Assembly (NCBI RefSeq): GCF_037975245.1
Contig: NC_092564.1
Coordinates: 9,583,984-9,647,983 of the forward strand
Reading direction: 5' to 3'
DNA length: 64,000 nucleotides
DNA from: Apostichopus japonicus
Taxonomy: Eukaryota; Echinodermata; Holothuroidea; Aspidochirotida; Stichopodidae
In this document: positions 4,680 to 27,699 of the stretch, piece after piece
How the letters are laid out: each line of letters begins with the position of its first letter
How positions within the stretch are numbered: the stretch's first letter is position 1
Made by a program: the position numbers and the translations under genes
The notes under the pieces: generated by a model
What the model was told of the DNA's origin: nothing
Databases searched by the model: none
What the model saw: the letters and a program-made list of their open reading frames with translations, nothing else

Positions 4680-6060
4680 TTTGGGGGGGGGGGGCTGTAA
4701 CGACTTGCCCGAAAAATATAACCAAATTGTTTCGCGCGCTCCGCGCGCGCGTCCAACATGTTAATGTGCATATCATTTAGGCATTCATCGGTTATTACAT
4801 AACATGCCAATAACATACAATCATTTGCTATTACCCTTCCATATTGATTAGAATTATTGGGGAAGTCGTTACAATAATAATATTATAAGTTTAACCATTG
4901 AAAAACACATTGCAAATTACTTTTTCTTTCAGTAGGTGCCCGAAACATTCTCAACATATTGCCCGAATTTTCACCAACAAATTTGGTTGGGGATGCAGCT
5001 TTCCCCCAGCCCCCGCCTCCTACGCCTTTGGTTGTACATTGGGTTTTCTATATGGCTGGAAGGTGCCAGTGCCTAGATCTAGGATTACGTCAAGAAATTC
5101 TACATCAGTACAGATCTGCAATAGACTGGTACGTGTCCATCTCGCAAATGATGATTGGTGACATCACCAAGTCATGTGTTGCATATTAAATCTCTGCTAC
5201 AAATTAAATCTATGGCATTCTCTGCAATAAGATGATTAGTGACATCGCAAAGGATGATTAGTGACATCACCAAGTCATGTGTTGCATATTAAATCTCTGC
5301 TACATATTAAATCTACTGCCCTAAGATTCGTTTGTACGCGAACAGATCAGGGGTTGTAGCACCAGCTCCACCTCAGTGCACTGAATTATTCATATCTTGC
5401 ACGGGGTTGACGCTTATGTATTTTGGTTTTTTACTCCAGCTGAGGGTAGTCTGCGGCTCCACCTATTTCTATATAGACCCCGCCTTTTCTCCAGCTGAGG
5501 GTAGCTTGAAATGTCGATCAAATCTCCTTGTTAATGTCCATTGGCTTAGATATAATAGTAACGCCTCAACGATACATATTCATATTCCCCCTTCTATCAA
5601 TGTGGCTCGCGCGTACAGCCGTCTGCTATAAAACAACATTCTTGCGACGACTAACTGTCAAGTAATTTCACTTTTATTCTATGAAAACTGGACTGGGACA
5701 ACATTGTATTCCTTTATGTAAAAACGTCTGATATCACTTATTGCAGGTAGGTGCTACAAGGCAAAACGTCGTTAAATTCAGTTATTTGCCATCAGTGTAA
5801 CAGTCTTTACTTTAGCCTTAGGTAAGCTAGGCTGTCACTGCGATTGAGATTGTACGTAGTTTACGTTTATATGAAATAGCAAACTATGAGTATTACTACT
5901 AGTATGGGCCTAGTACAGTATCACTAGGTTATGTACTTGTAGTGGGTTATGATATGGTAAATAATTGTCGTACGATGACTGCGTAGGCCTATGCCCACAG
6001 CAAAGATGTTTAACACAGAGCATCACATTTGTCAATCAAATAATAATAAATACTCGTGAC
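4680..6060. other. Intergenic, no gene recognised
   Basis: Contains a poly-G tract at 4682-4693, a CG-rich block near 4730-4752 and a local direct repeat at about 5150-5310 ('GATGATTAGTGACATC', 'AGTCATGTGTTGCATATTAAATC'). No supported gene. Confidence 0.5.
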
Positions 6061-6072
6061 TTCACTGTAGGC

Positions 6073-7076
6073 TAGGGTGCGTCGGTAAATCGATATATCC
6101 AATAAACCCTTTTTCTTTGATATCCACACCAACGGTATTGAAATCTGCCATTAACGAAGATATCGAAATACCAAGTACATCCAAAATAAACCTTGAATAC
6201 TGGTAAAAAATAATACTGAATTAAAGATAATGACCCATTAGTACCCCTGAGTTCGAGTATATTCCTGCTGCAACTGTTTATAGTGTATAACTTACTGTAC
6301 CACCCCCGTAGTCAGGAAGTATTAACATTCTTGCTGCACATTCTTCCTGCACCTGTTGTGTGTACTATACCGAACAAAAGTTAATGAAGGAGAACAATGA
6401 TGTATTTCTTCCGTTTTCACCTTCAAAAATGGTTTAAGCCTACTCGGCCAATCACGATCACGGATGGGTTACATTTACACACGCTACTTATCATAATAAT
6501 TTCATTCCCAAGTTACGAAGTTGTATAATAATATCCACACTGTGCTATGACTAATTACTTTAGAACTTCATCATAGTAGTAACCGTACCGCAAGTACAGT
6601 TTCCTGCCAAATGGTTCTACCGATAAAGTCTCTTTCATTTCTTTTCTAGCTTGGTAACTATTGTCACTTGCTCTCCCACACCAATTATATATGCCACAGT
6701 CAACTACAGTACTACAATAACATACAGCTTGTGGTTGGACTGGGCTGGCCTCACAGTGAGGTGTACTGTAACTGTACATTCGCGTTGTATTGAAGGAGGT
6801 AAGCAACACTGATTTTTGTACTTTCTTTTCTTTTTGATCAAAGTTTTAGTAAATAAAATGCTGCAAAAGAAAGAGCATAGATGGGAATATCGTCATTTAA
6901 CTGCAAACACAATTGTAGGCTAGAATAGTGTCCATGCGATGCATACTAAGTGTTTGATAGTACAGTTGTGTATGTATCGGCAATCGGCAAGTGTTTCTTC
7001 TGGTATATATCCGATAATAACTGATTTTGGTCAGCTGTTTATCGGTATCTGTTATTGCTCACACCGACGCACCCTA
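6073..7076. mobile_element. Possible hAT-like element with exact 14-bp inverted ends
   Basis: TAGGGTGCGTCGGT at 6073-6086 is matched exactly in reverse complement at 7063-7076. The terminus pattern (T/C-AGGG) fits hAT-like elements. The flanking 8-mers (CTGTAGGC and CTGCACTG) share only three leading bases, so no target duplication is shown. Only the right end has been carried into the downstream tandem array. Confidence 0.45.
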
Positions 7077-10000
7077 CTGCACTGACACTAAGTAAGTGAT
7101 GGAGCTGAGGGTTCTTACTCTAGCCTCTAGGCCTTTATGATGTGTATTGTCAGGATCGATATGCCTGGGAGGAGTGGTGAGATTTGTTTACACGTCATGA
7201 TTTTAAGTGTTGTAAAGTAAAAGTAGTTAATTTGTCATTTCTGTATGGTATCAGTTCTCAATGATCAACTCCAGTAAGTCAAGTTCATGTAATTATCACT
7301 AGTGTTGATGTTGTAAACTACCTGTACTCTCCAACAGTTGGGATGATGATATAGTTTGCTGTTTGTACTTTGGCAATCAGGAGTGAGCCTGCTAACGGTG
7401 ATGTTGTTAAACCGGTGACTTTAATTATCTCACATCAATTGTACTGAAGGCTTCATTATTAAAGCTACTGTAGCAGCTGGGGGCACACTATATAGTAGTA
7501 ACCGTACCGCAAGTACAGTTTCCTGCCAAATGGTTCTACCGATAAAGTCTCTTTCATTTCTTTTCTAGCTTGGTAACTATTGTCACTTGCTCTCCCACAC
7601 CAGTTATATGCCACAGTCAACTACAGTACTACAATAACATACAGCTTGTGGTTGGACTGGGCTGGCCTCACAGTGGAGTGTACTGTAACTGTACATTCGC
7701 GTTGTATTGAAGGAGGTAAGCAACACTGATTTTTGTACTTTCTTTTCTTTTTGATCAAAGTTTTAGTAAATAAAATGCTGCAAAAGAAAGAGCATAGATG
7801 GGAATATCGTCATTTAACTGCAAACACAATTGTAGGCTAGAATAGTGTCCATGCGATGCATACTAAGTGTTTGATAGTACAGTTGTGTATGTATCGGCAA
7901 TCGGCAAGTGTTTCTTCTGGTATATATCCGATAATAACTGATTTTGGTCAGCTGTTTATCGGTATCTGTTATTGCTCACACCGACGCACCCTACTGCACT
8001 GACACTAAGTAAGTGATGGAGCTGAGGGTTCTTACTCTAGCCTCTAGGCCTTTATGATGTGTATTGTCAGGATCGATATGCCTGGGAGGAGTGGTGAGAT
8101 TTGTTTACACGTCATGATTTTAAGTGTTGTAAAGTAAAAGTAGTTAATTTGTCATTTCTGTATGGTATCAGTTCTCAATGATCAACTCCAGTAAGTCAAG
8201 TTCATGTAATTATCACTAGTGTTGATGTTGTAAACTACCTGTACTCTCCAACAGTTGGGATGATGATATAGTTTGCTGTTTGTACTTTGGCAATCAGGAG
8301 TGAGCCTGCTAACGGTGATGTTGTTAAACCGGTGACTTTAATTATCTCACATCAATTGTACTGAAGGCTTCATTATTAAAGCTACTGTAGCAGCTGGGGG
8401 CACACTATATAGTAGTAACCGTACCGCAAGTACAGTTTCCTGCCAAATGGTTCTACCGATAAAGTCTCTTTCATTTCTTTTCTAGCTTGGTAACTATTGT
8501 CACTTGCTCTCCCACACCAGTTATATGCCACAGTCAACTACAGTACTACAATAACATACAGCTTGTGGTTGGACTGGGCTGGCCTCACAGTGGAGTGTAC
8601 TGTAACTGTACATTCGCGTTGTATTGAAGGAGGTAAGCAACACTGATTTTTGTACTTTCTTTTCTTTTTGATCAAAGTTTTAGTAAATAAAATGCTGCAA
8701 AAGAAAGAGCATAGATGGGAATATCGTCATTTAACTGCAAACACAATTGTAGGCTAGAATAGTGTCCATGCGATGCATACTAAGTGTTTGATAGTACAGT
8801 TGTGTATGTATCGGCAATCGGCAAGTGTTTCTTCTGGTATATATCCGATAATAACTGATTTTGGTCAGCTGTTTATCGGTATCTGTTATTGCTCACACCG
8901 ACGCACCCTACTGCACTGACACTAAGTAAGTGATGGAGCTGAGGGTTCTTACTCTAGCCTCTAGGCCTTTATGATGTGTATTGTCAGGATCGATATGCCT
9001 GGGAGGAGTGGTGAGATTTGTTTACACGTCATGATTTTAAGTGTTGTAAAGTAAAAGTAGTTAATTTGTCATTTCTGTATGGTATCAGTTCTCAATGATC
9101 AACTCCAGTAAGTCAAGTTCATGTAATTATCACTAGTGTTGATGTTGTAAACTACCTGTACTCTCCAACAGTTGGGATGATGATATAGTTTGCTGTTTGT
9201 ACTTTGGCAATCAGGAGTGAGCCTGCTAACGGTGATGTTGTTAAACCGGTGACTTTAATTATCTCACATCAATTGTACTGAAGGCTTCATTATTAAAGCT
9301 ACTGTAGCAGCTGGGGGCACACTATATAGTAGTAACCGTACCGCAAGTACAGTTTCCTGCCAAATGGTTCTACCGATAAAGTCTCTTTCATTTCTTTTCT
9401 AGCTTGGTAACTATTGTCACTTGCTCTCCCACACCAGTTATATGCCACAGTCAACTACAGTACTACAATAACATACAGCTTGTGGTTGGACTGGGCTGGC
9501 CTCACAGTGGAGTGTACTGTAACTGTACATTCGCGTTGTATTGAAGGAGGTAAGCAACACTGATTTTTGTACTTTCTTTTCTTTTTGATCAAAGTTTTAG
9601 TAAATAAAATGCTGCAAAAGAAAGAGCATAGATGGGAATATCGTCATTTAACTGCAAACACAATTGTAGGCTAGAATAGTGTCCATGCGATGCATACTAA
9701 GTGTTTGATAGTACAGTTGTGTATGTATCGGCAATCGGCAAGTGTTTCTTCTGGTATATATCCGATAATAACTGATTTTGGTCAGCTGTTTATCGGTATC
9801 TGTTATTGCTCACACCGACGCACCCTACTGCACTGACACTAAGTAAGTGATGGAGCTGAGGGTTCTTACTCTAGCCTCTAGGCCTTTATGATGTGTATTG
9901 TCAGGATCGATATGCCTGGGAGGAGTGGTGAGATTTGTTTACACGTCATGATTTTAAGTGTTGTAAAGTAAAAGTAGTTAATTTGTCATTTCTGTATGGT

Positions 10001-12077
10001 ATCAGTTCTCAATGATCAACTCCAGTAAGTCAAGTTCATGTAATTATCACTAGTGTTGATGTTGTAAACTACCTGTACTCTCCAACAGTTGGGATGATGA
10101 TATAGTTTGCTGTTTGTACTTTGGCAATCAGGAGTGAGCCTGCTAACGGTGATGTTGTTAAACCGGTGACTTTAATTATCTCACATCAATTGTACTGAAG
10201 GCTTCATTATTAAAGCTACTGTAGCAGCTGGGGGCACACTATATAGTAGTAACCGTACCGCAAGTACAGTTTCCTGCCAAATGGTTCTACCGATAAAGTC
10301 TCTTTCATTTCTTTTCTAGCTTGGTAACTATTGTCACTTGCTCTCCCACACCAGTTATATGCCACAGTCAACTACAGTACTACAATAACATACAGCTTGT
10401 GGTTGGACTGGGCTGGCCTCACAGTGGAGTGTACTGTAACTGTACATTCGCGTTGTATTGAAGGAGGTAAGCAACACTGATTTTTGTACTTTCTTTTCTT
10501 TTTGATCAAAGTTTTAGTAAATAAAATGCTGCAAAAGAAAGAGCATAGATGGGAATATCGTCATTTAACTGCAAACACAATTGTAGGCTAGAATAGTGTC
10601 CATGCGATGCATACTAAGTGTTTGATAGTACAGTTGTGTATGTATCGGCAATCGGCAAGTGTTTCTTCTGGTATATATCCGATAATAACTGATTTTGGTC
10701 AGCTGTTTATCGGTATCTGTTATTGCTCACACCGACGCACCCTACTGCACTGACACTAAGTAAGTGATGGAGCTGAGGGTTCTTACTCTAGCCTCTAGGC
10801 CTTTATGATGTGTATTGTCAGGATCGATATGCCTGGGAGGAGTGGTGAGATTTGTTTACACGTCATGATTTTAAGTGTTGTAAAGTAAAAGTAGTTAATT
10901 TGTCATTTCTGTATGGTATCAGTTCTCAATGATCAACTCCAGTAAGTCAAGTTCATGTAATTATCACTAGTGTTGATGTTGTAAACTACCTGTACTCTCC
11001 AACAGTTGGGATGATGATATAGTTTGCTGTTTGTACTTTGGCAATCAGGAGTGAGCCTGCTAACGGTGATGTTGTTAAACCGGTGACTTTAATTATCTCA
11101 CATCAATTGTACTGAAGGCTTCATTATTAAAGCTACTGTAGCAGCTGGGGGCACACTATATAGTAGTAACCGTACCGCAAGTACAGTTTCCTGCCAAATG
11201 GTTCTACCGATAAAGTCTCTTTCATTTCTTTTCTAGCTTGGTAACTATTGTCACTTGCTCTCCCACACCAGTTATATGCCACAGTCAACTACAGTACTAC
11301 AATAACATACAGCTTGTGGTTGGACTGGGCTGGCCTCACAGTGGAGTGTACTGTAACTGTACATTCGCGTTGTATTGAAGGAGGTAAGCAACACTGATTT
11401 TTGTACTTTCTTTTCTTTTTGATCAAAGTTTTAGTAAATAAAATGCTGCAAAAGAAAGAGCATAGATGGGAATATCGTCATTTAACTGCAAACACAATTG
11501 TAGGCTAGAATAGTGTCCATGCGATGCATACTAAGTGTTTGATAGTACAGTTGTGTATGTATCGGCAATCGGCAAGTGTTTCTTCTGGTATATATCCGAT
11601 AATAACTGATTTTGGTCAGCTGTTTATCGGTATCTGTTATTGCTCACACCGACGCACCCTACTGCACTGACACTAAGTAAGTGATGGAGCTGAGGGTTCT
11701 TACTCTAGCCTCTAGGCCTTTATGATGTGTATTGTCAGGATCGATATGCCTGGGAGGAGTGGTGAGATTTGTTTACACGTCATGATTTTAAGTGTTGTAA
11801 AGTAAAAGTAGTTAATTTGTCATTTCTGTATGGTATCAGTTCTCAATGATCAACTCCAGTAAGTCAAGTTCATGTAATTATCACTAGTGTTGATGTTGTA
11901 AACTACCTGTACTCTCCAACAGTTGGGATGATGATATAGTTTGCTGTTTGTACTTTGGCAATCAGGAGTGAGCCTGCTAACGGTGATGTTGTTAAACCGG
12001 TGACTTTAATTATCTCACATCAATTGTACTGAAGGCTTCATTATTAAAGCTACTGTAGCAGCTGGGGGCACACTATA
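6574..12077. repeat. Six-copy tandem array of a ~917-bp unit
   Basis: Units begin with TAGTAGTAACCGTACC at 6574, 7493, 8410, 9327, 10244 and 11161. Spacing is 919 bp for the first and exactly 917 bp for the rest. Copies 2-6 look essentially identical; copy 1 differs by small changes (for example ATTATATATGCC versus GTTATATGCC). The array ends near 12077, where the junction sequence GGGCACACTATAC is briefly repeated. Each unit holds the ACCGACGCACCCTA terminus described for the element at 6073-7076. No open frame is conserved across copies, so the unit is probably non-coding. The high identity implies recent amplification or homogenisation, or an assembly artefact. Confidence 0.95.
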
Positions 12078-12431
12078 CAGGGCACACTATACAACTTTCA
12101 CCTAATTTTGAATCATCGCCACAATTTTGAGTCACAAACAGATTGCCTTGAACACTATACGACTGACTATGTGGTTTCCTAACTAAAGTCCAAATAATGT
12201 ATTCAATTCATTGGCTTTACTTTCTACCTGTGAAATGGTTTGGTCAATAGCCTTATTTGAACACTCCTAATTTGAAACCCTTTGAGAAAGTGTTAACATA
12301 TTACACTAAGAAATTGTTGTATATCTTTCCTCAGGACGTCTTTTACAATGGATTTGTTTCTCTGCATCTGTTTGCAGCTGCAATATATTTCCTTCAGTTT
12401 TATGTATTAGTGGCCCTAATTGTATTTCAGA
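12078..12431. other. Upstream region of the transposase gene
   Basis: Separates the array from the first recognised coding exon. Two splice-acceptor-like sites are visible, one near 12334 (TTTCCTCAG) and one at 12421-12430 (TGTATTTCAG). An untranslated exon therefore probably lies upstream, but I cannot place it. No inverted terminal repeat of the transposon was recognised here. Confidence 0.4.
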
Positions 12432-12543
12432 ATGGCAGAAGACGTTTCCAAGTGTCATGTCTGTGGAGATGAGTATCCATCAGCAGCAGTGTTGTACTGG
12501 CATTATCGATGCCATCATCTCCATCCTCCACCAGTCTACCAAG
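12432..12543 (+). CDS. Transposase gene exon 1: C2H2 zinc finger
   Basis: ATG at 12432 follows the acceptor TGTATTTCAG. The exon encodes MAEDVSK and then a C2H2 finger (CHVCGDEYPSAAVLYWHYRC-HH), ending at the donor CAAG|GTACTG. It has 37 codons plus one base (phase 1). The lone G joins CA at 15169-15170 to make GCA and continues exactly in the frame of the long downstream exon. This in-frame join and the shared zinc-finger theme are why I place the start here, not in the GT microsatellite upstream of the long exon. Not confirmed by transcript data. Confidence 0.75.
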
Positions 12544-14095
12544 GTACTGTACAGTGCTGTATAGTTGCAAGCTACAGTTTTCAATTGGTATAGCCACATT
12601 TTACTATTTGTGTTACTTTTGTTATCGACTGTTGTGTTGTTTTTAGTTATTTAACTGTTGCACTATTCTGTTTTACTATTACTGTGTTTTTTTACCAGTT
12701 TTTTCTTCTGACATGAGAAAAAAGGATGCCAATCCTGGTCAAAAGCTGGTAACACTAGCAATAAAATACCTCCACAATGTGTTAATTGCCTTGAGCTTGC
12801 ATCACCCATAATTTACAACAATTTAAATTTGATGCCACTCTCACCCTGGTGTTGATATACTGCTTTCAATTGTCTATAAGTCCAATTATGCATTTGAATA
12901 TAAAAACAGACTAGAAACCAAATCAACTCTCTCAGTGCTGAAAGACAGTAGACACTCACACTGTCCCAATAAATACATGTTTCCTTTCCCCAAATTTTGG
13001 CTATTTCACAATGTATGAGCAAATTCCGAACTTGGATCAAAGCATAAACAAGCATTCCTTCTGTTTACAAACATAATGCAGCAGAATATTTTTGTTCATG
13101 CCTGTAGGGAATGTCTTGCAGAACTATCAACACAACTTGATCTGAACATAAACAGAGATACAGGCCATGAATGTTGTTTTGTTCTTAGTTATGACTCTTT
13201 CAAACATTGCCAAAAGGACAATAATTTGGAAATCAGGTATTTCAGTGTCAACACGTCAGTAATGTTTTGCTACTGTACCTGTCAGCAAGGTAGATGATAG
13301 TGCAGTACCTGTTACAAGAAAAAAATTGTATGACATCCATTTCATGTCAGTTTGGAAGAATACCATGGCAGGTGTTATTGAGCCTGTTGTAAACATTTGA
13401 AATGGGTTAAGTACACATATTAATGAGTTCAATTTGTTCACTAACTTTTTAATTTTTATGTTGACTCAGTGATGCAGTAAAATCTGTTCTGGTGATGTAG
13501 AAGTAATTTCTACAAGTGGTTCAATTCCATTGGCAGATTATGTGCACTTCACTGTATGCTTCATATGCATAAACAGGGCAAGCAAAGGTGTTATAACTTG
13601 AATGAATTGGAATGTTGGAAATTGGTTTTGCCACAGAAAATCTAAAATTGGATATAAATAACATAAAGTCAACTTGTGTTGCTCTCCTTAACCATCATTC
13701 ATACCCCTAGAAGATTTTGTTCACACAGGCTCGATTCCCCACTTCAGTGTAGTCAAGTACTACACAGTCCCACTACTTGAAAAGTTCTGCTATAAGTTCC
13801 AATAAAGGAGATAGTACCAAATTTGTTTTCTTGAAATTTTGGACATTTGAAAATCGGGTGCTAACATATGTTTATGAAGCTCTGGTTTTGTTAGTAGCTT
13901 TAAGGTTTGTTTGCCTTCTTCTTCTGCTTTTGTTTTTTCTTTTCTTTTCAGGACTTATTTAGCCAATGTTCCAACATTTTATCAAACACAACACAGATGA
14001 ATTATGTGAGACGGGAGCAATGAGACCAGAGTATTTCTAATTTGAACAGTTTCTACATTTTGTTTTATATTTATATTGAATTCTTATATTGAAAT

Positions 14096-14400
14096 TGATG
14101 GCCAAGTGGTTAAGAAGATGGGCTGTGGTCGAGTCCTGTTATGGTCATTGCGTTTGTGTGTCCTTGGGTAAGACACCTAAACTTGATTGCTTGTCTCTTC
14201 CCAGGACTTTAAACATGCACCTGTGAGGTAACTTGTACTTGTAGTTGTGTGGCGGATTGTGGCAGCTCCTATGAGAAACACCGCAGGGGGCATGTTGATG
14301 CTTCAGTGTGCCAGGAGTGATTAGATTGAAGTTACCACTTGCATTGTGCACTTGAGGTGAAGTTTGTATATATACTGTACAGTACGCTGACACAAGTATG
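14096..14400 (+). mobile_element. tRNA-derived SINE
   Basis: The pol III A box TGGCCAAGTGG and a degenerate B box GGTCGAGTCC lie about 24 bp apart. They are followed by a body containing TGTGTCCTTGGGTAAGACAC, a block I know as widespread in invertebrate SINEs. Right boundary approximate; no target duplication identified. Confidence 0.7.
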
Positions 14401-15012
14401 GTAACATAGCAGGGATGTTAGGGGTATTTGCGGTCCTTTAAATATAGGGGTTTCCTGGAAAAGAAAAAGCCAGAAAGAAGAGAGTTCCACTGGAGTTAAA
14501 AGTCAAGTAGTTCTTATTTATTGACAATTATCCATGTGAAAAATGCTGTCTTCACTATGATATAAGTTTACTTAACTTTCTACTAGCTAACTTAACAGTC
14601 AAAATCTAAGGTCTAAATCTTCAAAAAACTCTTTCAGGGTGAGGGGACCTAGTTAGACCATCCTCTGACTATAACCTCTACCACTCAATTGGCAGATCCT
14701 CACTCTGAGTTGATCAGAGGGTTACCGAACTCTTCTTGAATATCACACTCATTAGAGAAGCCAGATTGGATGAAATTTCTGGGATAACTTAAACATCAAC
14801 AGTTTCGACTGTTACACAGTACGTAGCATAATCGAATGAGTAATAGCTGTAAAGAAATACATAACAGACTTCTCTAAGTTGTCAAAGAGAGTTACTAATA
14901 TGCTATGGTATGGTACTAGATAACATAATAGGAACTAGGGCAAGTTGAAATTACAGGGTGATTGTTATATTATTACATAACAGTATGCACACGGTATGTA
15001 CCGTGTGTCATT

Positions 15013-15090
15013 ATGTGTGTGTGTATGTATGTATCTGTATGTATGTATGTGTGTGCATGTATGTGTGTATGTATGTACTGTATGCATGTG
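15013..15090. repeat. GT/GTAT microsatellite
   Basis: Mixed TGTG and TGTATGTA units. It translates to a Cys/Val/Tyr-rich stretch that falsely extends the downstream open frame leftwards. Confidence 0.9.
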
Positions 15091-15168
15091 TGCAAGTCAC
15101 ATGTCATGAAGCACCCTTTCAAAAGTGGTTGAGCAATTTTCAATGTGAGATCTATTTTTCTTTTACAG

Positions 15169-16697
15169 CATCGACTGTTGTCAGAGAAGATGACTTTCAG
15201 CAGGACAGAAGTCAATCCATGTCAACGAGATGTACCTTGTGCAGTTTCAATTGTTCGGCACCATCCAGGTACAGGAGACACGTGAAAAGTCATTTACAAA
15301 GTAAATCAAACTTACATTTTAATGGTGTTACATGTTTGTTATGTAAAATTCCTCATTCAGATTTGCCTAGTAAATCATCGGAAAGTTTCCATCATTTCCA
15401 TTGTTTCATATGTGACAAAACATTACGGAGAAGAATTGATTTTGAGAAGCATGTTAGTAAATGCTGGAAAGAGCAAGGCTATTGTAAACTTCTCATCATT
15501 AACAAATCAGAAGACAAGGAATTGCTTCATGAAGAGAAGAGAAACGCTGAGGAAGTTCTAGAAAGAGGAAACCCAAGGGAAAGGAATGTGAAGAAAGAGA
15601 AAGTCCAGCAAAAGACCGACTTAGTGGATGATGCCAATGAAGTCAGCATAAGCAGGAATACACAAGATAGAGTCACCTGTGAAATGTGTTCGAGGACTTT
15701 GCAAAAATGCAGTCTTAAGAGGCACATTGAACAACAGCATGGAGAAGACAGAAAGGCATATGGAGTATGTGTGGACAGTGAAAATGGAATTTACATGGTA
15801 AGAAAAACAAACAGTGGGGTGAACTTTCCTTGTCATGTGCAAAAGAAAGTCTGTGATGCAGTTACCAAAGAAGTGTTATGTGAAATTTCAGAATGCATAC
15901 ACACTGCAGAAATTGCTAGTCGATCTGGATACAAGTCTTTTGAATGCAGACATTTGCAGATTGCTTCCAAATGTGCACCTGAACCTGATGTTGTAGTACT
16001 GGAAGATGATATTTTACATTCCCTGTCCAGTGAGGGAGAGCACAAGTTAATCTCTGATTCAAGTATAAAGGGGGCAAAAAGCATCAGAGCTAAAGCTGAA
16101 GCAAACAACTGTCAAGCAGTCATTCAGTTTCCATCAACAACAGGTGACATCTATTTGCACTATTCTGTATTTGATGGGACTGTACATAACTACTGCCGAT
16201 TGAAGAGGTGTGTGGTCTCATTTCATGTGACACACCATACTATTGACTGCTCTTGCTGTAGAAGAAAACAGAATTGCCTACACAAGTCTATTGTGTTGTG
16301 GTTTCTTGCCCAGAGGGGTTACAATATTTCGGAACTTGCTCCTGGCCTTGACAGCAACAATGAAACAGACCAAAAGATCTGTGAGGACAGACTTACTTCA
16401 TCCGTAAAGCAAAGTGAGATTTACCCTCCAGATAAAGGAGATGTTATCAAACAAATGACAAAATATCTTCTTGACCAGAAGAAAATTCAGCATCCCATAC
16501 CAGAAGCTTGGAAAAAAAGGAAGAAAATTCCAGATCATTTTGTCCCCACAGAGACCACATGCTTTTCGTGTCATATACCTTTATCCAAGCCAACACTCGT
16601 ATCAAATAAAGCCAAAGTATTTTCCATTTCCGGAATCAACATAGTATCAACATATGTGAAGTTGTGTCAACAATGCCATCTGCCGTACAGGTACTAG
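15169..16697 (+). CDS. KDZ/Zisupton-type transposase, N-terminal zinc-finger part, ends at in-frame TAG
   Basis: First part of the long exon, 509 codons before TAG at 16695-16697. Counting from the ATG at 12432 it carries C2H2 fingers at about residues 59-79 (CTLC...HVKSH), 93-135 and 208-228 (CEMC...HIEQQH). A charged linker sits between fingers. A SWIM finger, C-x-C-x6-C-x-H, lies at 398-409 (CSCCRRKQNCLH). Two CxxC pairs at 502-505 and 537-540 form a zinc-ribbon-like knot just before the stop. SWIM fingers and Cys clusters ahead of the DDE core are family features of KDZ (Kyakuja-Dileera-Zisupton) transposases and of the vertebrate HMGXB3 relative. The frame resumes unchanged after the TAG and the domain continues, so this is one gene with a nonsense codon, not two genes. 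Confidence 0.8.
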
Positions 16698-19600
16698 GAG
16701 GTCACTGATGGCATACACAACTACAATGACCTATTCTTGATTACTTATGAAGTCCTTAATATCCTTGAGAGTAGTGTAGCTTCCCATATTGCAATAGGCA
16801 GCCAGGTAGAGTGCTTTAACAAAGCCATGAACATCAACCTTAATACCTCGACTGTGATAGGTGCCTATTTACATTTTGTAGGTATGAGTCAGCGGACGTA
16901 TGACTTCACCTGCATTAGTTGTGGATACTATCCTCCACTGATTGTAATGGATTTAGATAAGAAAGGCGCATTCCATTGTGATAGTAGCCAGATGGAGCTT
17001 CCAGAAATGAGCCCGGAAAGCGATGTTGTCAATGTTTGGCAGAATGTTGTAAGGCATCAAGTTGCAGGTGGTTTTCTCAAGAGTGGCACTGAAAATCCAT
17101 TTCCTGTCATTCCTGGATACCAAAACTGGGCACCATACATAGCCCCAAATTCGAGAGGATCTGTGGTTATCAATACAGAGCACAGAAAGGTTTCAAGGTC
17201 AACAGGTAAATTGGAAGAAGAGGTACACAACATGACGGAAGAACGTCTCATTGAATTACTCTACAATAGTACAACCAGAACAGTCAGAGAACTTGGACAG
17301 GGCCTCAGGATAACTGGCTTATCTAAAATGGCCAAAGCAGACATCATCAGACACATACAAAATGCAATTTCATCAGATGAAAACAAGTTTCATAAAGTTT
17401 TTAAGAAAGCTTGGGGTAGCTCAGGAGGTTGGGCAAGTCTTGTATGTCCACATGGCATTGTTTATGCAATTAAATTTGTTGTCAGGGCTGAGAGTCCAAG
17501 AGATTATGTGGACCTTCTTGCAAATCTGAAACATATGCCTAACATTGTCCTGGTTGATATGGCTCACATGGTAGCAAATCATGCAAAAAAGAGATTCCCG
17601 AAGATGTTCAATCCCTATGATGGACGGTTAGCTGAGGTAACAGAGGCCAATCTGAAATTAGCCAAAAGAAAGGAATTAGTGGTGGAAATGCCCTGGTTAC
17701 ACAATAATTTCTGCATCCTTCAACCAGAAGATGACCAGCACCCTGTCACAGGATGTAATGAGTTCTATTGTCTGTATGATCGATTTCATGAAAAGAATTC
17801 CTCAAGAAAATGTGAGATACTAAGACGGATCACTAATGTACCTCAACTACATGGTTTCATCAATACACAAGTAGTTGAGCAGTTGCACCAGCAGATCAAT
17901 AGAAATAATAATTTTCTTACCCAAATGAAGCCAGCAAGACACATATTCATGTTTCGCAACTTGCTGGACTTGCACAACAAGGACATCAATCGCAGACAAA
18001 TTGCTAACGTTGAAGCAGCAACTGGATACAGTGTACACCTAAACATCTTTGGAAGGGCAATGCTCTTTGGAAAATGTGAGACCAAGGGTAGAGCTGAAAA
18101 CATCACAGTTTCCAGCACTATATCCTCTTGCAAGACTGTCCATGGATCATTTGAGGAGAATTATGATGGAGATAGCCTAGAGGACCATTCAGACATTTCC
18201 CCTTCCTGTCCCTTTGTATCAAGATTTCCTCCAACACCATCTTCAACAGATAGAAATTTGAATCCCCACCAAAGTGATCTTTTATCTGGTCAGAAGGAAA
18301 CCAAAGATTCAGGTAATGAATGCAAAGACCCACCTGTCATTGACCTTACATGTCACCCAGATGAGCTACAAGGAAGTGATATGTTATCTGGTCACAAAGA
18401 AAGAAAAAATTCCAGAAAGGGGGAATGCAAAGACTTACCCATCATTGACCTCACCTGTCAGCCAGATGAGCCATCTTCAAATCGCAGTCATCTATGGGTG
18501 CCATCATTGCATCTATCTAATCAGGAGTTAGAGATTCTTGAAAGACAGGAATGTTTGACAGATACCATAATTGAAGCTGGTCAATCTCTTCTAAAGGCTC
18601 AGTTCCCATATGTTGGGGGATTGCAACCACCATATAAAGCCCTATCATCATCAGGATTTGACATCGAACCAGGAGAGTTTGTACAGATCATTCATCTACC
18701 AAACCATTGGGTGACTGTGTCAACCATTGGATGCCGAAAATCAGAAGTAAAGCTGTATGACAGCATGATAGCTAATGCGTACTCATTATCGATGACTCAA
18801 CTGATCACCTCAATGATGATGTCTATGGACCCACAAATCACTATTCTCGTAATGGATGTCACTCAACAACAAGATTCTAGGTCCTGTGGTGTATACGCCC
18901 TTGCATTTGCTTCTGCTCTGTGTCTCCATATTGAGCCTTCTACTCTAAACTTCTCTCAATCCAGAATGTACCCTGATCTGAAAACATGCCTTCAAGAAGA
19001 GAGAATGACATTAATAGGGGCAGAAAAAGGGAGCAACCTTTCCAAGGTCAACAAGAGGATCGTAGCAAAAATTTACTGCACTTGTAGGGGCCCTGATGTT
19101 GGCAACACTATGATGCAGTGTTTCATATGCATGGAATGGTTTCATGAAGAATGTGTTGGGGTTGTGCCTGTTGGGAAATTTATCTGTAGATTTTGTCGAA
19201 AGAGGAAGATACAAAAGCAAGAAGATAATGCCCTTGCCAAAAGACAAAAGATGGAAGAAACAAAGCAAGAGTTCATTAATATCAAACAACGAAGTGGGGT
19301 ACTGAAGGAGAAACAGAAGATAGCTGAGGATTTTTATTGTTACATTAACCGTGTTGCATTTGGAGATATTTTTCCTGATCCATGTGATAAAATAGCAGTG
19401 CTGGCAAAGTGGACATGGGAGTTCCACCAGTCCCGGGATGAAACTATTGGTGTAACAGTAAAAGACGCAAATCATCCAGACGGCTTTGATTTCATCCTAA
19501 TTGATGGCAACAACATACCTGATAACACTATGTTGTACGAAGTAATCATTCACGAAATGGTCCACGCTTTTGTTGCTATGAACGGTTGCTTCTTAGCAAA

Positions 19601-19739
19601 ACATGGGAAAAAATTCCAAAAGCTCGGGCGAGAATGCATCTCTAAGTTAAATGCAGTATGTCATGATCAGAAACTTCCCCATGGGCTATCCAACAAATTA
19701 ATTGACCCACACAATGTTTTACTTGCCACTCGAAAGTGA
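16698..19739 (+). CDS. KDZ/Zisupton-type transposase core fused to SIMs, Ulp1 protease, PHD finger and SprT metalloprotease
   Basis: Same frame as the upstream part; 1013 codons to TGA at 19737. Residues are counted here from codon 16737. Putative RNase H-fold triad: D72 (CISCG...IVMD), D274 (VLVDMAHM), E381 (TQVVEQLHQQ). A SAP-like helix pair at about 167-211 (ERLIELL...LSKMAKADIIRHI) lies inside the core. Two SUMO-interacting motifs, VIDLT (534-538) and IIDLT (569-573), sit in a duplicated ~34-residue linker. Ulp1-type C48 protease at about 640-750: H657 (NHW), D675 (YDS), Q711, C717 (SCG). C4HC3 PHD finger at 781-820. SprT-type zincin at about 860-970 with H939-E-M-V-H943 and H956. The core is typical of KDZ, and a Ulp1 domain is known in Zisupton; I do not recall SIM+PHD+SprT in one. 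No in-frame ATG follows the TAG until well inside the core. CGAAA|GTGAGT at the end could be a splice donor, so a further exon is possible. Confidence 0.85.
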   Translation, partial: EVTDGIHNYNDLFLITYEVLNILESSVASHIAIGSQVECFNKAMNINLNTSTVIGAYLHFVGMSQRTYDFTCISCGYYPPLIVMDLDKKGAFHCDSSQMELPEMSPESDVVNVWQNVVRHQVAGGFLKSGTENPFPVIPGYQNWAPYIAPNSRGSVVINTEHRKVSRSTGKLEEEVHNMTEERLIELLYNSTTRTVRELGQGLRITGLSKMAKADIIRHIQNAISSDENKFHKVFKKAWGSSGGWASLVCPHGIVYAIKFVVRAESPRDYVDLLANLKHMPNIVLVDMAHMVANHAKKRFPKMFNPYDGRLAEVTEANLKLAKRKELVVEMPWLHNNFCILQPEDDQHPVTGCNEFYCLYDRFHEKNSSRKCEILRRITNVPQLHGFINTQVVEQLHQQINRNNNFLTQMKPARHIFMFRNLLDLHNKDINRRQIANVEAATGYSVHLNIFGRAMLFGKCETKGRAENITVSSTISSCKTVHGSFEENYDGDSLEDHSDISPSCPFVSRFPPTPSSTDRNLNPHQSDLLSGQKETKDSGNECKDPPVIDLTCHPDELQGSDMLSGHKERKNSRKGECKDLPIIDLTCQPDEPSSNRSHLWVPSLHLSNQELEILERQECLTDTIIEAGQSLLKAQFPYVGGLQPPYKALSSSGFDIEPGEFVQIIHLPNHWVTVSTIGCRKSEVKLYDSMIANAYSLSMTQLITSMMMSMDPQITILVMDVTQQQDSRSCGVYALAFASALCLHIEPSTLNFSQSRMYPDLKTCLQEERMTLIGAEKGSNLSKVNKRIVAKIYCTCRGPDVGNTMMQCFICMEWFHEECVGVVPVGKFICRFCRKRKIQKQEDNALAKRQKMEETKQEFINIKQRSGVLKEKQKIAEDFYCYINRVAFGDIFPDPCDKIAVLAKWTWEFHQSRDETIGVTVKDANHPDGFDFILIDGNNIPDNTMLYEVIIHEMVHAFVAMNGCFLAKHGKKFQKLGRECISKLNAVCHDQKLPHGLSNKLIDPHNVLLATRK
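18273..18477 (+). repeat. In-frame tandem duplication carrying two SIMs
   Basis: Two ~102-bp copies start at the AGTGAT of 18273 and of 18375. Both encode (D)LSG-K-...-ECKD-P-(V/I)IDLTC-PDE. Spacing is 34 residues, with one residue of indel. The retained VIDLTC and IIDLTC cores match the canonical SUMO-interacting motif seen in RNF4 and PIAS proteins. Confidence 0.8.
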
Positions 19740-19850
19740 GTATCTTTACTTTTCAATAATGGGTGACTTAATGCATTATCTTTGCTTCATATTTTGTTCT
19801 GTAATACAACAAAATTAGAAACATAATTGGTCAGAACATTGCCAAGGACA

Positions 19851-19900
19851 GGGGTATAGCCAGGTTTTTCGTGTGGGAAGGGGGGGGGTCAAATTTCTGT
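19851..19900. mobile_element. MITE terminus-like sequence
   Basis: CAGGGGTATAGCCAGG is followed by a poly-G tract. This resembles the termini of the short hAT-like elements elsewhere in the window. The partner end was not identified. Confidence 0.3.
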
Positions 19901-19979
19901 CTTAGATGCATAATGGTGCTATCATTTCCATTTTGGTTCCTTGCTTTTTGCAAAGCAAGAAACCTATGCGTTCAACTTG

Positions 19980-20650
<671 letters not shown>

Positions 20651-21069
20651 TCTTAAAAAGTTCTTTTAACCAAACAGCAGTTATTCTGATGTATCAATTA
20701 AACAGAGAAATAATTTGAATTAGAATACCTTGATGCCAAGTTTGTTGTGCATGAAAAGGTATTAGTTCAAACTCAAACTGAATGAAAAGTGAATTACTCT
20801 GGTCAATTTATCAAAATAAAAGCAGTGCAGACTAAAAGATAAGGACAACTAATGGCTAAAGGAGGATAAGTAGTTATGAGAGATAAATGTGTTCCTTACT
20901 TTCTGTACAGTATTCCTCCAACTCATTGAGCTGGGACGTCAACTTAAGAAAAATTCATATATATACTGTTTTTTCTGCCGATTAGAGAAATTTCTGTTGG
21001 AAATTGCTATTGCTGAGGCAGTTTTTTTTGGGCAAATCTTTGCAGGATGAATATCTATTGCTGATTTGC

Positions 21070-21092
21070 GGGGGGGGGGGGGGGGGGGGGGG
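21070..21092. repeat. Long poly-G tract
   Basis: An uninterrupted run of about 22 G, the longest in the window. It is followed by ordinary sequence. Confidence 0.9.
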
Positions 21093-21339
21093 AACAGTAC
21101 AGAAACTTATGTATAATTTATCTTTCAACTACCAAAGCTCCTTTAATTTCTCTCTCAGAGAAAGAGACTCGGTATTTTTGTTCATTAGATGGTACGTCCC
21201 ACAAAGAAGTTAGTCCTGCATTTTGGGATTGGTACCCAAACCTTTTGAAAGGTCTGCTTTTGGTCCCAGACATGTTGGAACAGCAAGATTTGTGGTCCCA
21301 CATATTGGGTGTGATTCCACAAATTTAGTTTGAAACATG

Positions 21340-21600
21340 CTTTATTTGGACCACAAATGTTGTCTCTCAGGTGTGTTTTTTTGGTCCCACAATTTGGTCT
21401 GGTCCCACAAATGATGTTTCTCAGGTGTTTTTTTTGGGCCCACAATTTGGTCTGGTCCCACAAATAATGTTTCTCAGGTGTGTTTTTTGGTCCCACAATT
21501 TGGTCTGGTCCCACAAATAATATTTCTTAGGTGTGTTTTTGTGGTCTCACATATTTGGACTGGTCCCACAAAGGTGTGTTTTTAAGGTCCCACACATAAG
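21340..21600. repeat. Degenerate ~55-60-bp tandem repeat rich in GGTCCCACAA
   Basis: Successive units contain TCTCAGGTGTGTTTTTTGG, TCCCACAATTTGGTCTGG and TCCCACAAAT. GGTCCCACA recurs at least eight times. The minus-strand open frame through it is repeat-encoded and not credible as a gene. Confidence 0.8.
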
Positions 21601-22082
21601 GTGTACATTCTGTTCCCACAAATCAGGTCCAACAATTGTTGATGCAAAACGTACCAAGTTACTGGTCCCAATATTATTGTGGAGGTGAGTGTGTGTGTGT
21701 GTGCGTTTGTTTTGCTATCTGACCGAGGACTTGAACAAAAGAATTTCAGGTCCTCGGTTGTGATTTCTAAAGAATCACCACGTCCTCGGAAGAATTCTAT
21801 TGTATGGGGTATTGTTAAGGTTAGGGTACGTGGATTTGAACAATGGAAAATACAATGGGGCTTTGGTCTGAATGTAATACAAACATGTCTGTGTGTGTGT
21901 GTGTATGTGATGCTTGGCTTGTGTACACGGTATCTCAATAAGGAAATGATATATCATGATCAAACTGGTGGATAGCCCATAGTAAGAGGAAGATCCCTAT
22001 TGTTTTTGTTGCCCTCAAAGGTCACCAAAGGCCAGTTAGATGCCAAAAACCAATATATTAAAAACAGTAATAACTCCCATTG

Positions 22083-22500
22083 ACAGGGTCTGACATGGTT
22101 GATATTTTGGGAGTCGTTGTGAATGGGGTAAGGGATCGTTTCCAAACATAACGGTAATGTGATCGAAGGTCAACAAAGGTCAATAAATGTTAAAAAACTA
22201 TTATTTTGGGGGGAGAAAATGGGCAATGAAAAAAATGTTTGAAGTTTTACAGATGCTATATTCACGTCCCACCGATCAAGAATATCAATTGGTTCATGAC
22301 CTCCGGGTGACCTTTGTGTGTTGAGTTACATGAGGTCAAAGTTAATTTTCAGACATTTAGTGCAATTAAATCCCAATGCCAAGGTGTGACACGGTTGATA
22401 TTTTGGGACAAGTTGTGAATGTGGTGGTGGAACATTTTCAAACTTAACGGTCATGTGATCTGAGGTCACTAATGTTATCATATCTGTTGACCCGCTTGTA
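22083..22500. repeat. Two diverged ~105-bp direct repeats
   Basis: GGTTGATATTTTGGGA...GTTGTGAATG...TTTCAAAC.TAACGGT.ATGTGATC occurs at about 22095-22170 and again at about 22393-22460. This is probably a remnant of a dispersed repeat. Confidence 0.6.
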
Positions 22501-22599
22501 GGTGACCTTATATTTCTTACATTTTCTACGCCATATTTAGAACTAAAAAGTGCCTTTTGATAAAAAATCTGATCACAAATTGTGATCACAAGTGTTGGC

Positions 22600-25000
22600 T
22601 ATAGTGTTGGTTACTTTATTGGTACATGTAGGACCACAATTACTTGGACTATTTGAGCCCAATCTTGCTTGATAATATTATGTGTATTGTCATATACCCC
22701 TACGCAAGGAACCACGGTGCCCTTGGGCTCTTGTTTAAACTACGTTGCGTACTAAAAAGTACAAAGTTAAATTTCTGTCCCCATTTTCAGGCACATAGTG
22801 GTGGATCGCCGTTGTTGGGGAAGGGTTGAACAATTTTGTTCTTCAAAAAGGGCTTAGATGCCAAGTGGTGCTTTTATTTACATTTTTTTACCTACATTCA
22901 TGAACTAAAGAGAGTATATTTAATTTTTTTTTTGCTCGCTTTGAATATTCACCATCGGTTCCCCAAAAATTTCTGTCGGGGCACTCTGCCCCCTGCCTCC
23001 TGCTGGGTACGCCACTGGCCAAGGATGAAGGTATGTGCAGTCAGCTGAGCTTAGCATCATAATCAATGATAGTCTGGACTCTGGTTGTTATTTGGACTGT
23101 AGAGATAAACTTTGGATAAGCTTTCATGTTGGGGATATTGAGTACAAGAAGTCTGTCAGTTGCATTAAAGCTCAAATATATCATATAGCTGTCATTGTAA
23201 ATACATTGTTACAGACCCCTAAGTAATCTCAATAATTTGTATGATTTTTGCAACAAATAGTTGTATTATTAATCAATATTTTAGAATATTATAAATTAAT
23301 CTAAGAATCATAGTATAGAAATGCCTGGTGTGTGTGCATATCTGGTGTGTGTAGAATATTTGGAAAAGTTGAGAAGCTTCTAGAAGAGTTAGAACTTTTG
23401 AGAATAATTTAGATCATTCAACACAGAACACATTTGAACATGCTAGAACATTGGAGTGCTGCAAAGGGGACATCCCCTGTGCTATTTTTAGAACACTAGG
23501 TGAGGATTTCCTGGAAAGGTGAAGTGACCTTTTGGATTGGTTTAACCATCTTGGCTCAAGGAGTTTTATAACATCTCGCTCAAGTGAATCCTACAATTCC
23601 AGTGTGAGTAAATACTCACTTAGTTTGACAGTAGAGTTATAGCTGTCTTTATATTAGTGGATTTGTCACAAGTTTGCCGGCTTCAAAGTCGTCCATCGTT
23701 GTGTAGCCGTCCAAGCACTTCTTATTGTGGCCTCTGAGTTACCCAAGGACAGGAATCCAAGGATAAATAAGCTGCAAGCACAACTTGGACATTCATTAGT
23801 AGTAGACCTCCGAAGTGGAAATCATCAAGTTGAGAACTGGATTTCTTCAATATTGGACATTCGTCCGCCGACAAGTTTCGCCATTAACCACAATGACCAC
23901 AATGCTGTACAAGTTCAGGTGTCATATTCATTAAAGAAGATACTCAAACCATATCATCAAAACCACAATGTATTTTTACATTCTGGTTAACTTGAATGGA
24001 TGTCAACATACTTCTTCACATTGCAATGTGGCAACATCTCAATTTCACACATAGTTATAATAAGCTTTGTTTGATTTGAAGTTTTTTATTATAAAAGCCA
24101 GTACTTCCATAAGCAAAGGTAAATTGGTGCAACATAGCTACTGTGTTAGTGTTAGCATTAAACATTTCTGACATGGTCCCTGTATTTTGTCTTATTGGCA
24201 CCACTTCCTTGGTTTTCCTTCTGCAGTCAACTGTCTTTTTCATTTTCTACTGGCAGGAGGTTGCCTGCAGTCAGCATAGCAGGCCACAGGGACCACATGC
24301 TAGCATGTAGTACTGATTTGACAGTCCTTCAAACTTGTATCTTCTACTGCACAGGAGGAAGAGCTTAAACATAATTGGGAAATAAATCAGGGACCTGCTA
24401 TTTAGAAATAGCAGGTCCCTGATTAAATCACACGGTCTACAACAGTTTATATCTATGTCTAACATAATGTTGTAGATAGTAGCTACTGTTTGTTTGGGTT
24501 TCTATTTGGAATCAAATTTTACTTTAACTGTGCCTGCCAGGTGTTCTTTGAGTTTACTTGTCAATGTGTGGTTACTTAATATGGATTATTGGAAACAGTC
24601 ATTCTCACAAATCAGTGTATAGTTTTAAAATTCGAGCATGGTCCTGGTTTAGGTGACACGGTGTATTAATAGTTGGCTATCCAGTTGCAATATTTTTACT
24701 TACCTGAAAGTAGCAGGAACAGGTTACGATTAAATTAAATTATTTAATCGAGTTGTGGTCGGTAAGTATGCATTAAAACTGTTCCATATTACTTTAAGGT
24801 GTCAAGGTATCTTTTTGTTGCAGAATGTAGGAATCTTCTTTTGCTCATTGGTTTGGCTGTATTTTACGTATTTAAAGAGGGCAAAGTTACATTTCCAGAA
24901 ATGTTGGGGGAGGGGGGGGGGGGATGGTACAACTACTGAAGGGCAATTTCGCAAATGTACAGCTTTAACTGATGAACTGACACACCTGACTCGGAATTAA
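22600..25000. other. Intergenic, no gene recognised
   Basis: Contains a MITE-like end near 23005-23020 (TGGGTACGCCACTGG), a perfect hairpin at 24385-24424, and a poly-G tract near 24906-24922. Short open frames have no recognisable domains. Confidence 0.5.
24385..24424. repeat. Perfect 19-bp hairpin with a 2-nt spacer
   Basis: The arm AATCAGGGACCTGCTATTT (24385-24403) is followed by AG and then its exact reverse complement (24406-24424). The loop is too short for a microRNA precursor. It is more likely a small palindrome or an inverted-repeat scar. Confidence 0.9.
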
Positions 25001-25289
25001 AAATTTTCGAACCTTTCAAAATAAGAAACATTTAATACGAAACTCGGAAAAAATTAGAAGCAGTGAGGTGAGTTTAGTGCACGTATTCCACTTGGTATAG
25101 TCTCTGCAACTTTTTATAATCAGTATCGTTCTCGCACTGTTGATTTGTGAAATTTCAGTCATTTTTTATTTCTTGGATGGTGGAAAGGTGATGAATTAAT
25201 ACAGTGAAAGTTACATACATTTTGATAACGATATATTCTGGTTAAATTATACTTCATCGCTGTTTTCTTTGTTTGTTTTTGTAAAAAAA

Positions 25290-27690
25290 ATATTATAAAA
25301 AACAGTTGTAATCCCGAGAAACACCAAAAATATCCATAAATGTGGTTAACATTACTACATAGTGTATTTAACACAGTCTACCAAAAACAAAAAATAAACG
25401 TGTCCATAAGAGTCATAAGTTATCGCAATTTTTCGTCAAAATGTATTAAATTTGGTCAAAAATCGAATTTTGGAATTTTCCCAAATCAATCGCGTTACTG
25501 AGCTACCCTGAGGTGGAGCTGAGTTTTAACCCCGAGAAACACCCTAATTGTCCATCAGTGTAGCTGAAATTACTACATAGTGTAGTGAACATAGCCTTCA
25601 ATAAGTAAACGTGTCCATTATAGTCATAAGTTATCGCAATTTTTTCGTCAAAATGTATTCAATTTGGTGAAAAATCGAATTTTGGAATTTTCCCAAATCA
25701 ATCGCGTTACTGAGCTACCCTGAGGTGGAGCTGAGTTTTAACCCCGAGAAACACCCTAATTGTCCATCAATGTAGCTGAAATTACTACATAGTGTATTGA
25801 ACATAGTCTACAATGAGTAAACGTGTCCATTATAGTAATAAGTTATCGCAATTTTTCGTAAAAATGTATTCAATTTGGTGAAAAATCGAATTTTTAAAAT
25901 TTCCCAAATCAATCGCGTTACTGAGCTACCCTGAGGTGGAGCTGAGTTTTATCCTCGAGAAACACACTAATTGTCCATCAATGTAGCTGAAATTACTACA
26001 TAGTGTATTGAACATAGTCTACAATTAATAAACGTGTCAATTAGAGTCATATAAGTTATCGCAATTCTTCGTCAAAATGTATTCAATTTGGTCAAAAATC
26101 GAATTTTGGAATTTTCCAAAATCAATCGCGTTACTGAGCTACCCTGAGGTGGAGCTGAGTTTTAACCCCGAGAAACACCCTAATTGTCCATCATTGTAGC
26201 TGAAATTACTACATAGTGTATTGAACATAGTATACAACAAATAAACGGGTCCATTATAGTCATAAGTTATCGCAATTTTTCGTCAAAATGTATTCAATTT
26301 GGTGAAAAATCGAATTTTGGAATTTTCCAAAATCATTCGCGTTACTGAGCTACCCTGAGGTGGAGCTGAGTTTTAACCCCGAGAAACACCCTAATTGTCC
26401 ATCAATGTAGCTGAAATTACTACATAGTGTATTAAACATAGTCTACAACAAATAAATGGGTCCATTAGAGTCATAAGTTATCGCAATTTTTCGTCAAAAT
26501 GTATTCAATTTGGTGAAAAATCGATTTTTAAAATTTCCCAAATCAATCGCGTTACTGAGCTACCCTGAGGTGGAGCTGAGTTTTAACCCCGAGAAACACC
26601 CTAATTGTCCATCAATGTAGCTGAAATTACTACATAGTGTATTGAACATAGTCTACAATAAGTAAACGTGTCCATTATAGTAATATGTTATCGCAATTTT
26701 TCGTCAAAATGTATTCAATTTGGTGAAAAATCGAATTTTGGAATTTTCCAAAATCATTCGCGTTACTGAGCTACCCTGAGGTGGAGCTGAGTTTTAACCC
26801 CGAGAAACACCCTAATTGTCCATCAATGTAGCTGAAAATACTACATAGTGTATTGAACATAGTCTACAACAAATAAACGGGTCCATTATAGTCATAAGTT
26901 ATCGCAATTCTTCGTAAAAATGTATTCAATTTGGTGAAAAATCGATTTTTAAAATTTCCCAAATCAATCGCGTTACTGAGCTACCCTGAGGTGGAGCTGA
27001 GTTTTAACCCCGAGAAACACCCTAATTGTCCATCAATGTAGCTGAAATTACTACATAGTGTATTGAACATAGTCTACAACAAATAAATGGGTCCATTAGA
27101 GTCATAAGTTATCGCAATTTTTCGTCAAAATGTATTCAATTTGGTGAAAAATCGATTTTTAAAATTTCCCAAATCAATCGCGTTACTGAGCTACCCTGAG
27201 GTGGAGCTGAGTTTTAACCCCGAGAAACACCCTAATTGTCCATCATTGTAGCTGAAAATACTACATAGTGTATTGAACATAGTCTACAACAAATAAACGG
27301 GTCCATTATAGTCATAAGTTATCGCAATTCTTCGTAAAAATGTATTCAATTTGGTGAAAAATCGATTTTTAAAATTTCCCAAATCAATCGCGTTACTGAG
27401 CTACCCTGAGGTGGAGCTGAGTTTTAACCCCGAGAAACACCCTAATTGTCCATCAATGTAGCTGAAATTACTACATAGTGTATTGAACATAGTCTACAAT
27501 AAGTAAACGTGTCCATTAGTCATAAGTTATCGCAATTTTTTGGAAAAAATGTATTCAATTTGGTCAAAAAATCGAGGAGGAGTTTTAACGCCGAGAAACA
27601 CCCAAATTGTCCATAAATGTTGCTGAAAATAATACACAGTGTATTTAACATTATTTAAAATAAATAAACGGGTCCATAAGAGTCATAAGT
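25290..27690. repeat. Satellite array of ~210-bp monomers (about 11 copies)
   Basis: The landmark AGCTACCCTGAGGTGG recurs at 25501, 25713, 25924, 26137, 26348, 26558, 26769, 26979, 27189 and 27399, spaced 210-213 bp. Diverged edge copies lie at about 25290-25500 and 27530-27690. Monomers differ in an internal block (GAATTTTGGAATTTTCC versus GATTTTTAAAATTTCCC), and the two variants are partly interleaved. No coding potential. Confidence 0.95.
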
Positions 27691-27699
27691 AAATTGTTT

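Follow-up and report, generated by a model that had tools for sequence, protein, structure and literature searches.

A transposase-like gene lies within a complete DNA transposon

The window analyzed here is a stretch of 64,000 nucleotides from the holothurian Apostichopus japonicus (positions 9583984-9647983 of contig C4, in a genome of 671.6 Mb and 35 contigs that we also searched). On its forward strand, a gene at 12432-19739 encodes a long transposase-like protein ending in a predicted C48 protease, a PHD finger and a SprT-like metalloprotease domain, and this gene sits within a complete DNA transposon of 22,549 bp (5345-27893). An earlier note on this DNA, made from the letters alone, had taken the gene as the unit and all its catalytic residues as intact. 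The unit is the 22.5-kb transposon, and the window copy of the protein is interrupted by a premature stop: two open stretches, 14949-16697 and 16698-19739, share a frame and abut at a lone TAG (16695-16697). A sister copy on contig C15 is without this stop and stays open for 1,596 codons, and over the aligned main exon the two proteins differ in 8 of 1,520 columns, counting the stop and a gap. A database protein from A. japonicus, P0001, shows 99% identity over the entire query. The order of the parts of the protein was read correctly in the earlier note, and on C15 a single frame runs through all of them without a break: zinc fingers, CxC4 cluster, presumed D/D/E core, motifs resembling SUMO-interaction motifs (SIM-like), C48, PHD and SprT. 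In the window, the features of the gene are as follows.

12432..12542, forward strand: first coding exon, predicted, with start ATG; 100% match to the N-terminus of gene model P0005
15169..19739, forward strand: main coding exon of the transposase-protease protein, broken by the TAG at 16695-16697
16248..16286, forward strand: SWIM-like zinc motif, C-C-C-H, found by eye and seen in relatives; no Pfam match
16524..16784, forward strand: CxC4 cysteine cluster, KDZ-associated, interrupted by the TAG; Pfam PF18717, P0001 residues 24-110
16698..18060, forward strand: presumed transposase core with candidate D, D, E columns; end approximate
18336..18350, forward strand: SIM-like motif 1, VIDLT
18441..18455, forward strand: SIM-like motif 2, IIDLT
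18495..19064, forward strand: C48 (Ulp1/SENP-like) peptidase domain, H-D-Q-C present
19071..19205, forward strand: PHD finger
19281..19736, forward strand: SprT-like zincin domain, with HEMVH at 19551-19565 and a third His at 19602-19604

An inverted-repeat search on the window alone missed the ends of the element because TA-rich repeats dominated and the true ends ranked low; it was the second genomic copy that allowed them to be located. When the genome was searched with P0001, at least 46 matching pieces were found, a lower bound since 42 of 72 candidates were scored, and the whole protein was covered at 100% rounded identity by two loci, the window copy and C15:27358653-27361943. Outside the gene, these two loci match at ~97.5-99.8% over window positions 5345-27893 and not beyond, the C15 flanks compared being 3.1 and 6.4 kb long. 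On C15, the element spans 20,169 bp and has on either side an 8-bp duplication, GCATTGCA, that differs from that of the window. The terminal inverted repeats begin (G/C)ATCAGGGGTTG; their first 12 bases match at 11 of 12 positions, after which the match is imperfect, with a further block of 11 bases that matches.

5337..5344: target site duplication, left copy, 8 bp, CGCGAACA
5345..27893, forward strand: complete DNA transposon, ends fixed by comparison with the 20,169-bp C15 copy
5345..5375, forward strand: left terminal inverted repeat, imperfect, from end-to-end alignment; inner end approximate
27859..27893, reverse strand: right terminal inverted repeat, imperfect; inner end approximate
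27894..27901: target site duplication, right copy, 8 bp, CGCGAACA

The left 256 bp of the element has 24 matches in the genome, 15 of which start at base 1. Right ends at fitting distances were found on C20, C19, C5, C18 and at another site on C4, out of 141 right-end matches, many of which are the subterminal 210-bp unit described below. At all five insertions where both flanks were read (C4, C15, C20, C18 and C4:9416006-9416604), the 8-bp duplication is perfect. These include an internally deleted insertion of 8,753 bp on C20 (duplication GCGAGTGC), one of 788 bp on C18 (GAAATACC) and the one at C4:9416006-9416604 (GGTATAAG). We conclude that the transposon family comprises two long copies that encode the protein, together with shorter derivatives mobilized via common ends, and that the element has been recently mobile, leaving two copies at ~99% identity. 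Since it has defined ends, 8-bp duplications and a near-identical C15 copy with a different duplication, we consider it a mobile element, neither a domesticated gene nor a mis-assembly. The suggestion in the earlier note that a mobile element carries the protease domains is thus borne out by ends, duplications and deletion derivatives. Its alternative, a domesticated host gene of transposase ancestry, would fit the long coding exon and the gene models in databases, but it sits badly with the stop in the window copy, with duplications around a complete element, with two loci at ~99% identity and with deletion derivatives that share their ends. We rejected it for the window locus, where the element is complete, duplicated and multi-copy, and hold it to be very improbable.

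Predicted domains of the transposase-protease protein

The candidate D, D and E columns of the core, picked by eye, are invariant in all 10 proteins that we aligned (window, P0001, P0002, P0009, C5, C8, P0004, P0006, P0010 and P0011; P0003, P0005, P0007 and P0008 are outside this alignment, and P0007 and P0010 come from a single eukprot set). An AlphaFold model of the core was poor, with a predicted local distance difference test score (pLDDT) of 42, and unusable for assigning a fold. The CxC4 profile PF18717 (cut-off 26.9 bits) scored 41.5 bits on P0001, 31.6 on P0002 and 34.8 on the C5 protein, fell below the cut-off on P0006 (23.9 bits) and had no match on P0009 or P0004. The Pfam profile for the KDZ core, PF18758, had no match in protein scans, E values up to 10 included. 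Because this profile is unmatched, we name the element KDZ/Zisupton-like and do not file it as a member of the group to which the earlier note had assigned it; the label rests on the CxC4 cluster, the inverted repeats and the 8-bp duplications. The core may form a lineage distinct from the classified KDZ elements. Upstream of CxC4, the C-C-C-H motif at 16248-16286 is one that we take to be of the SWIM type.

Pfam was run on the 1013-codon part of the protein, as the earlier note had proposed, with cut-offs of 20.7 bits for Peptidase_C48, 25.6 for SprT-like and 24 for PHD. Only part of its expectation held in this run: Peptidase_C48 scored 27.4 bits, SprT-like was 0.8 bits under its cut-off, PHD was also under (19.5 bits) and PF18758 was unmatched. 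The expected residues and motifs are present, namely H-D-Q-C in C48, HEMVH...H in SprT, the two SIM-like motifs and the candidate D/D/E residues. The C48 domain is related to SENP1/Ulp1. The PHD finger displays C4HC3 and a conserved Trp, both kept in relatives, and among solved PHD structures it matches CXXC-type zinc finger protein 1 best (E 8e-6), as well as Spp1 and PHF2, whose PHD fingers read H3K4 methylation. Between core and C48, SIM-like motifs occur in lineages A and B only within the ten-protein alignment.

For the SprT domain, protein searches gave 24.8 and 25.2 bits, just below the cut-off, relatives scored 17.1-23.2 bits, also below it, and a six-frame search of the genome placed the stretch above it at 27.7 bits. 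The top match of the region in the Protein Data Bank is SPRTN, at a weak E value of 0.2. With the SprT model, none of 15 Foldseek matches was significant, and SPRTN was not among the best 50 of 66 VIA-align matches; an NCBIfam scan returned one match, not significant. Searching proteins with the SprT region alone was insensitive, since it returned P0001 only and missed P0002. No zinc ribbon is visible by eye after the SprT domain, which ends the protein, and a profile comparison with a host GCNA-like exon covered only 30 columns (probability 67%). The earlier note had seen here the plan of GCNA. A resemblance stands, and no more than that, given that the SIM-like motifs are confined to lineages A and B and that these comparisons bring out no specific likeness of the SprT domain to GCNA. 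As a separate observation, the host exon, presumably GCNA-like by its motif, lies at C14:11019443-11020101 and contains HELCHAACWLIHG; no SPRTN-like exon was among the 7 matches of the SprT family search in the genome.

The fusion recurs in divergent lineages

P0002 from Holothuria leucospilota, a species of the same order as A. japonicus and of a separate family, is 40% identical to P0001 over 1,100 columns spanning core, C48, PHD and SprT. On C5 of the A. japonicus genome, a divergent copy stays open for 1,733 codons and shows the domain order of the window protein, which is found again in P0009, from a 7-kb contig. The C5 SprT domain is 48% identical to that of Holothuria versus 28% to that of P0001, and therefore the two element lineages probably existed before these species separated, barring transfer of elements from one species to the other. 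This recurrence in Holothuria, in the C5 lineage and in P0009 bears on whether separate host genes were merged by assembly or gene modeling, the outcome that the earlier note had named as fatal to its reading. A weak lipase-like stretch at the N-terminus of P0002, where that model is possibly merged, is the sort of thing such an artefact would produce; the domain order within one open frame, at two loci and in divergent lineages, is not. We rejected a merger on the uninterrupted frame of the C15 copy, and its probability is negligible in our view.

SprT is present in five of the ten aligned proteins (window, P0001, P0002, P0009 and C5), all of which keep HExxH and the third His as well as H-D-Q-C of C48; since window and P0001 are almost identical, they amount to four independent sequences. 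Among them, the SprT regions diverge to as low as 24% identity. Between C15 and C5, the proportions of nonsynonymous (pN) and synonymous (pS) change were 0.44 and 0.76 for SprT, 0.45 and 0.77 for C48, and 0.36 and 0.89 for the core, which gives coarse support for purifying selection on SprT, as synonymous change is saturated and this is not a measured ratio. In comparisons with the decayed copies on C16, C17 and C21, ratios of nonsynonymous to synonymous rates (dN/dS) ranged from 0.34 to values above 1, which is what dead copies should show.

The protein on C8 retains C48 and stops ahead of PHD, and P0006 stops ahead of C48. P0010 has an extra N-terminal stretch (1-330), with a second protease-like pattern of H, D and C by eye, before the zinc fingers, and a single VIDLS motif at 333.

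Other features of the element and the window

Two tandem arrays lie within the element.

6573..12077, forward strand: 917-bp unit, about six repeats at >99% identity, upstream of the gene
25304..27575, forward strand: subterminal array, 210-bp unit, 10.7 copies

The 917-bp array is shorter in the C15 copy, with fewer units than in the window copy; it could be regulatory or simply young. In lineage B, the C8 and C10 copies likewise have an array downstream of the gene, spaced at ~211 bp, and a SprT piece that still has HEMVH and resembles these copies lies at C12:2806871-2807023. In a search for other cargo, no stop-to-stop frame in the window besides the two stretches of the gene reached 180 codons. 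There are 26 frames of at least 80 codons overlapping the element, the longest besides the gene having 161 codons (these others were not scanned with profiles). No transfer RNA was found in the window, nor any RNA family at gathering score. Outside the element, a dispersed repeat is present in three copies at 85-92% identity (30461-30829, 37599-37971 and 44267-44515), and there is a direct repeat of ~660 bp at 94% identity (53680-54326 and 54996-55656).

A proposed function for the protease domains

In animals, SUMO silences transposons and marks proteins that are stuck on DNA, according to the parts of two accounts that deal with this (PMC8131101 and PMC8441304). A transposase-like protein fused to a putative SUMO protease and a SprT domain, both with active sites that persist across three divergent lineages, suggests a conflict over the SUMO step. 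Our favored proposal, to which we give a little less than an even chance, is that the transposase-protease clears tightly DNA-bound or SUMO-marked proteins at the element. The N-terminal part would cut and join the element, and the C-terminal module would act where the protein sits on DNA. There, the SIMs and C48 would recognize and trim SUMO conjugates (Ulp1-type C48 enzymes remove SUMO), the PHD finger would keep the protein on histone tails, and SprT, as in SPRTN and GCNA, would cleave tightly DNA-bound and often SUMO-marked proteins. The module would probably act on SUMO-marked host proteins of chromatin or repair that sit at the element, and on the post-transfer complex of the protein itself, releasing donor and target ends for repair. 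No covalent protein-DNA intermediate is known for DDE transposases, so covalently trapped transposase, which the earlier note had put forward, is unlikely to be the main target. It is a doubtful but conceivable extension that this is an animal DNA transposon class with its own SUMO-guided, DNA-dependent protease stripping SUMO-marked host factors and the spent transposase complex from the ends; if true, it would be a self-encoded counterpart of SPRTN/GCNA repair, overcoming silencing and letting 20-kb elements finish transposition.

Several observations weigh against clearance as the role of the paired proteases. In sister lineage B, the copies on C8 and C10 are 99% identical over the 9.6 kb compared and share a decayed SprT domain (HKIVH plus stops), so that copying went on after the loss of SprT, either unaided or with help in trans, although transposition of both is unproven since neither right ends nor target duplications were found on C8 and C10 (the left end is present on C10; C8 is without its first bases). 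Because lineage B was copied after this loss, there is no strict requirement for SprT in cis. P0008 differs in its N-terminal half, has H, D, Q and C of C48 by eye and ends after PHD; since it retains C48 residues without SprT, a live C48-SprT pairing is not a rule, and the C48-PHD module seems common to unrelated elements. These same observations favor viewing C48, PHD and SprT as passengers, modules that bind or are left over and hardly affect mobility, as does the loss of the C48 Gln and Cys in P0004, P0010 and P0011, which have an aligned C48 region without SprT (two have also lost the His). Against passengers stand the active sites kept in every SprT-bearing aligned protein despite divergence, and pN below pS; we judge this reading unlikely. 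The claim that selection has kept both proteases accordingly needs qualifying: both sites persist in those five proteins, but the window copy has its stop and one lineage has lost SprT.

Two other roles deserve consideration. C48 and SprT might act chiefly on SUMO-marked piRNA (PIWI-interacting RNA) or heterochromatin factors at the promoter of the element, raising its expression and not assisting the transposition step. The kinship of C48 with SENP1/Ulp1 and the PHD matches to Spp1 and PHF2 are in line with such counter-silencing, as is the promotion of Argonaute-directed silencing by SUMO in Caenorhabditis elegans, reported in the relevant part of PMC8131101. However, a protein that binds DNA as part of a transposase would work mostly at the element ends, SprT would be unusual for such a job and its targets are only conjectural, which makes this role possible and yet rather unlikely. 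Alternatively, the proteases might cleave their own transposase, either releasing the core or shutting the enzyme down, as a single protein of ~1,600 codons with two C-terminal proteases could allow, and SPRTN cuts itself. There is no known cleavage site, however, and SENP-type C48 enzymes cut after SUMO, so we regard self-processing as distinctly improbable. As a system in which to probe the conflict over SUMO, the element combines a single protein whose two active sites can be separated, a naturally intact copy and naturally occurring deletion derivatives that could serve as substrates.

Comparison with known systems

The element resembles Zisupton/KDZ in its 8-bp duplications, terminal inverted repeats, CxC4 cluster and long protein, and differs in having no PF18758 match, a length of 22.5 kb, a SprT domain and SIM-like motifs. 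Zisupton makes 8-bp target duplications, as stated in the section of PMC12730594 that concerns it, and the pertinent passages of PMC9297572 report homologues in sea stars and lancelets and name PF18758 as the KDZ core profile.

Like SPRTN and GCNA/ACRC, the element SprT has HExxH and three zinc-binding His residues. These host repair proteins are not known to carry transposase, C48 or PHD, whereas the element SprT is fused to a transposase-like protein together with C48 and PHD. SPRTN and GCNA are described, in the portion of PMC13092972 on SprT-domain proteins, as tied to removing DNA-crosslinked proteins, with SUMO-interaction motifs in GCNA. The element C48 shares H-D-Q-C with the SUMO proteases SENP1/Ulp1 and is unlike them in its fusion to a transposase-like protein; its SUMO specificity is putative.

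Other mobile elements carry related modules. Crypton elements have a C48 peptidase, as does the element described here, but they are tyrosine recombinase elements, and no SprT domain is seen in the passages of PMC3212892 that deal with their peptidase. According to the corresponding part of PMC2836005, Ginger1 transposases have a C-terminal Ulp1 domain, joined by a PHD finger in Ginger1-9_HM, and Ulp1 also occurs in Mutator elements. The window transposase is like these in carrying a C-terminal C48, and like Ginger1-9_HM in having PHD too; it belongs to a different superfamily, and that part of the account shows no SprT. Among the papers listed in literature searches, judged by title and the opening of the abstract, with Repbase Reports and the original Zisupton/KDZ papers outside them, none showed a SprT domain on a transposase. 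C48 and PHD on transposases are thus already known from the Ginger1 account, and it is the SprT domain that looks new for a transposon.
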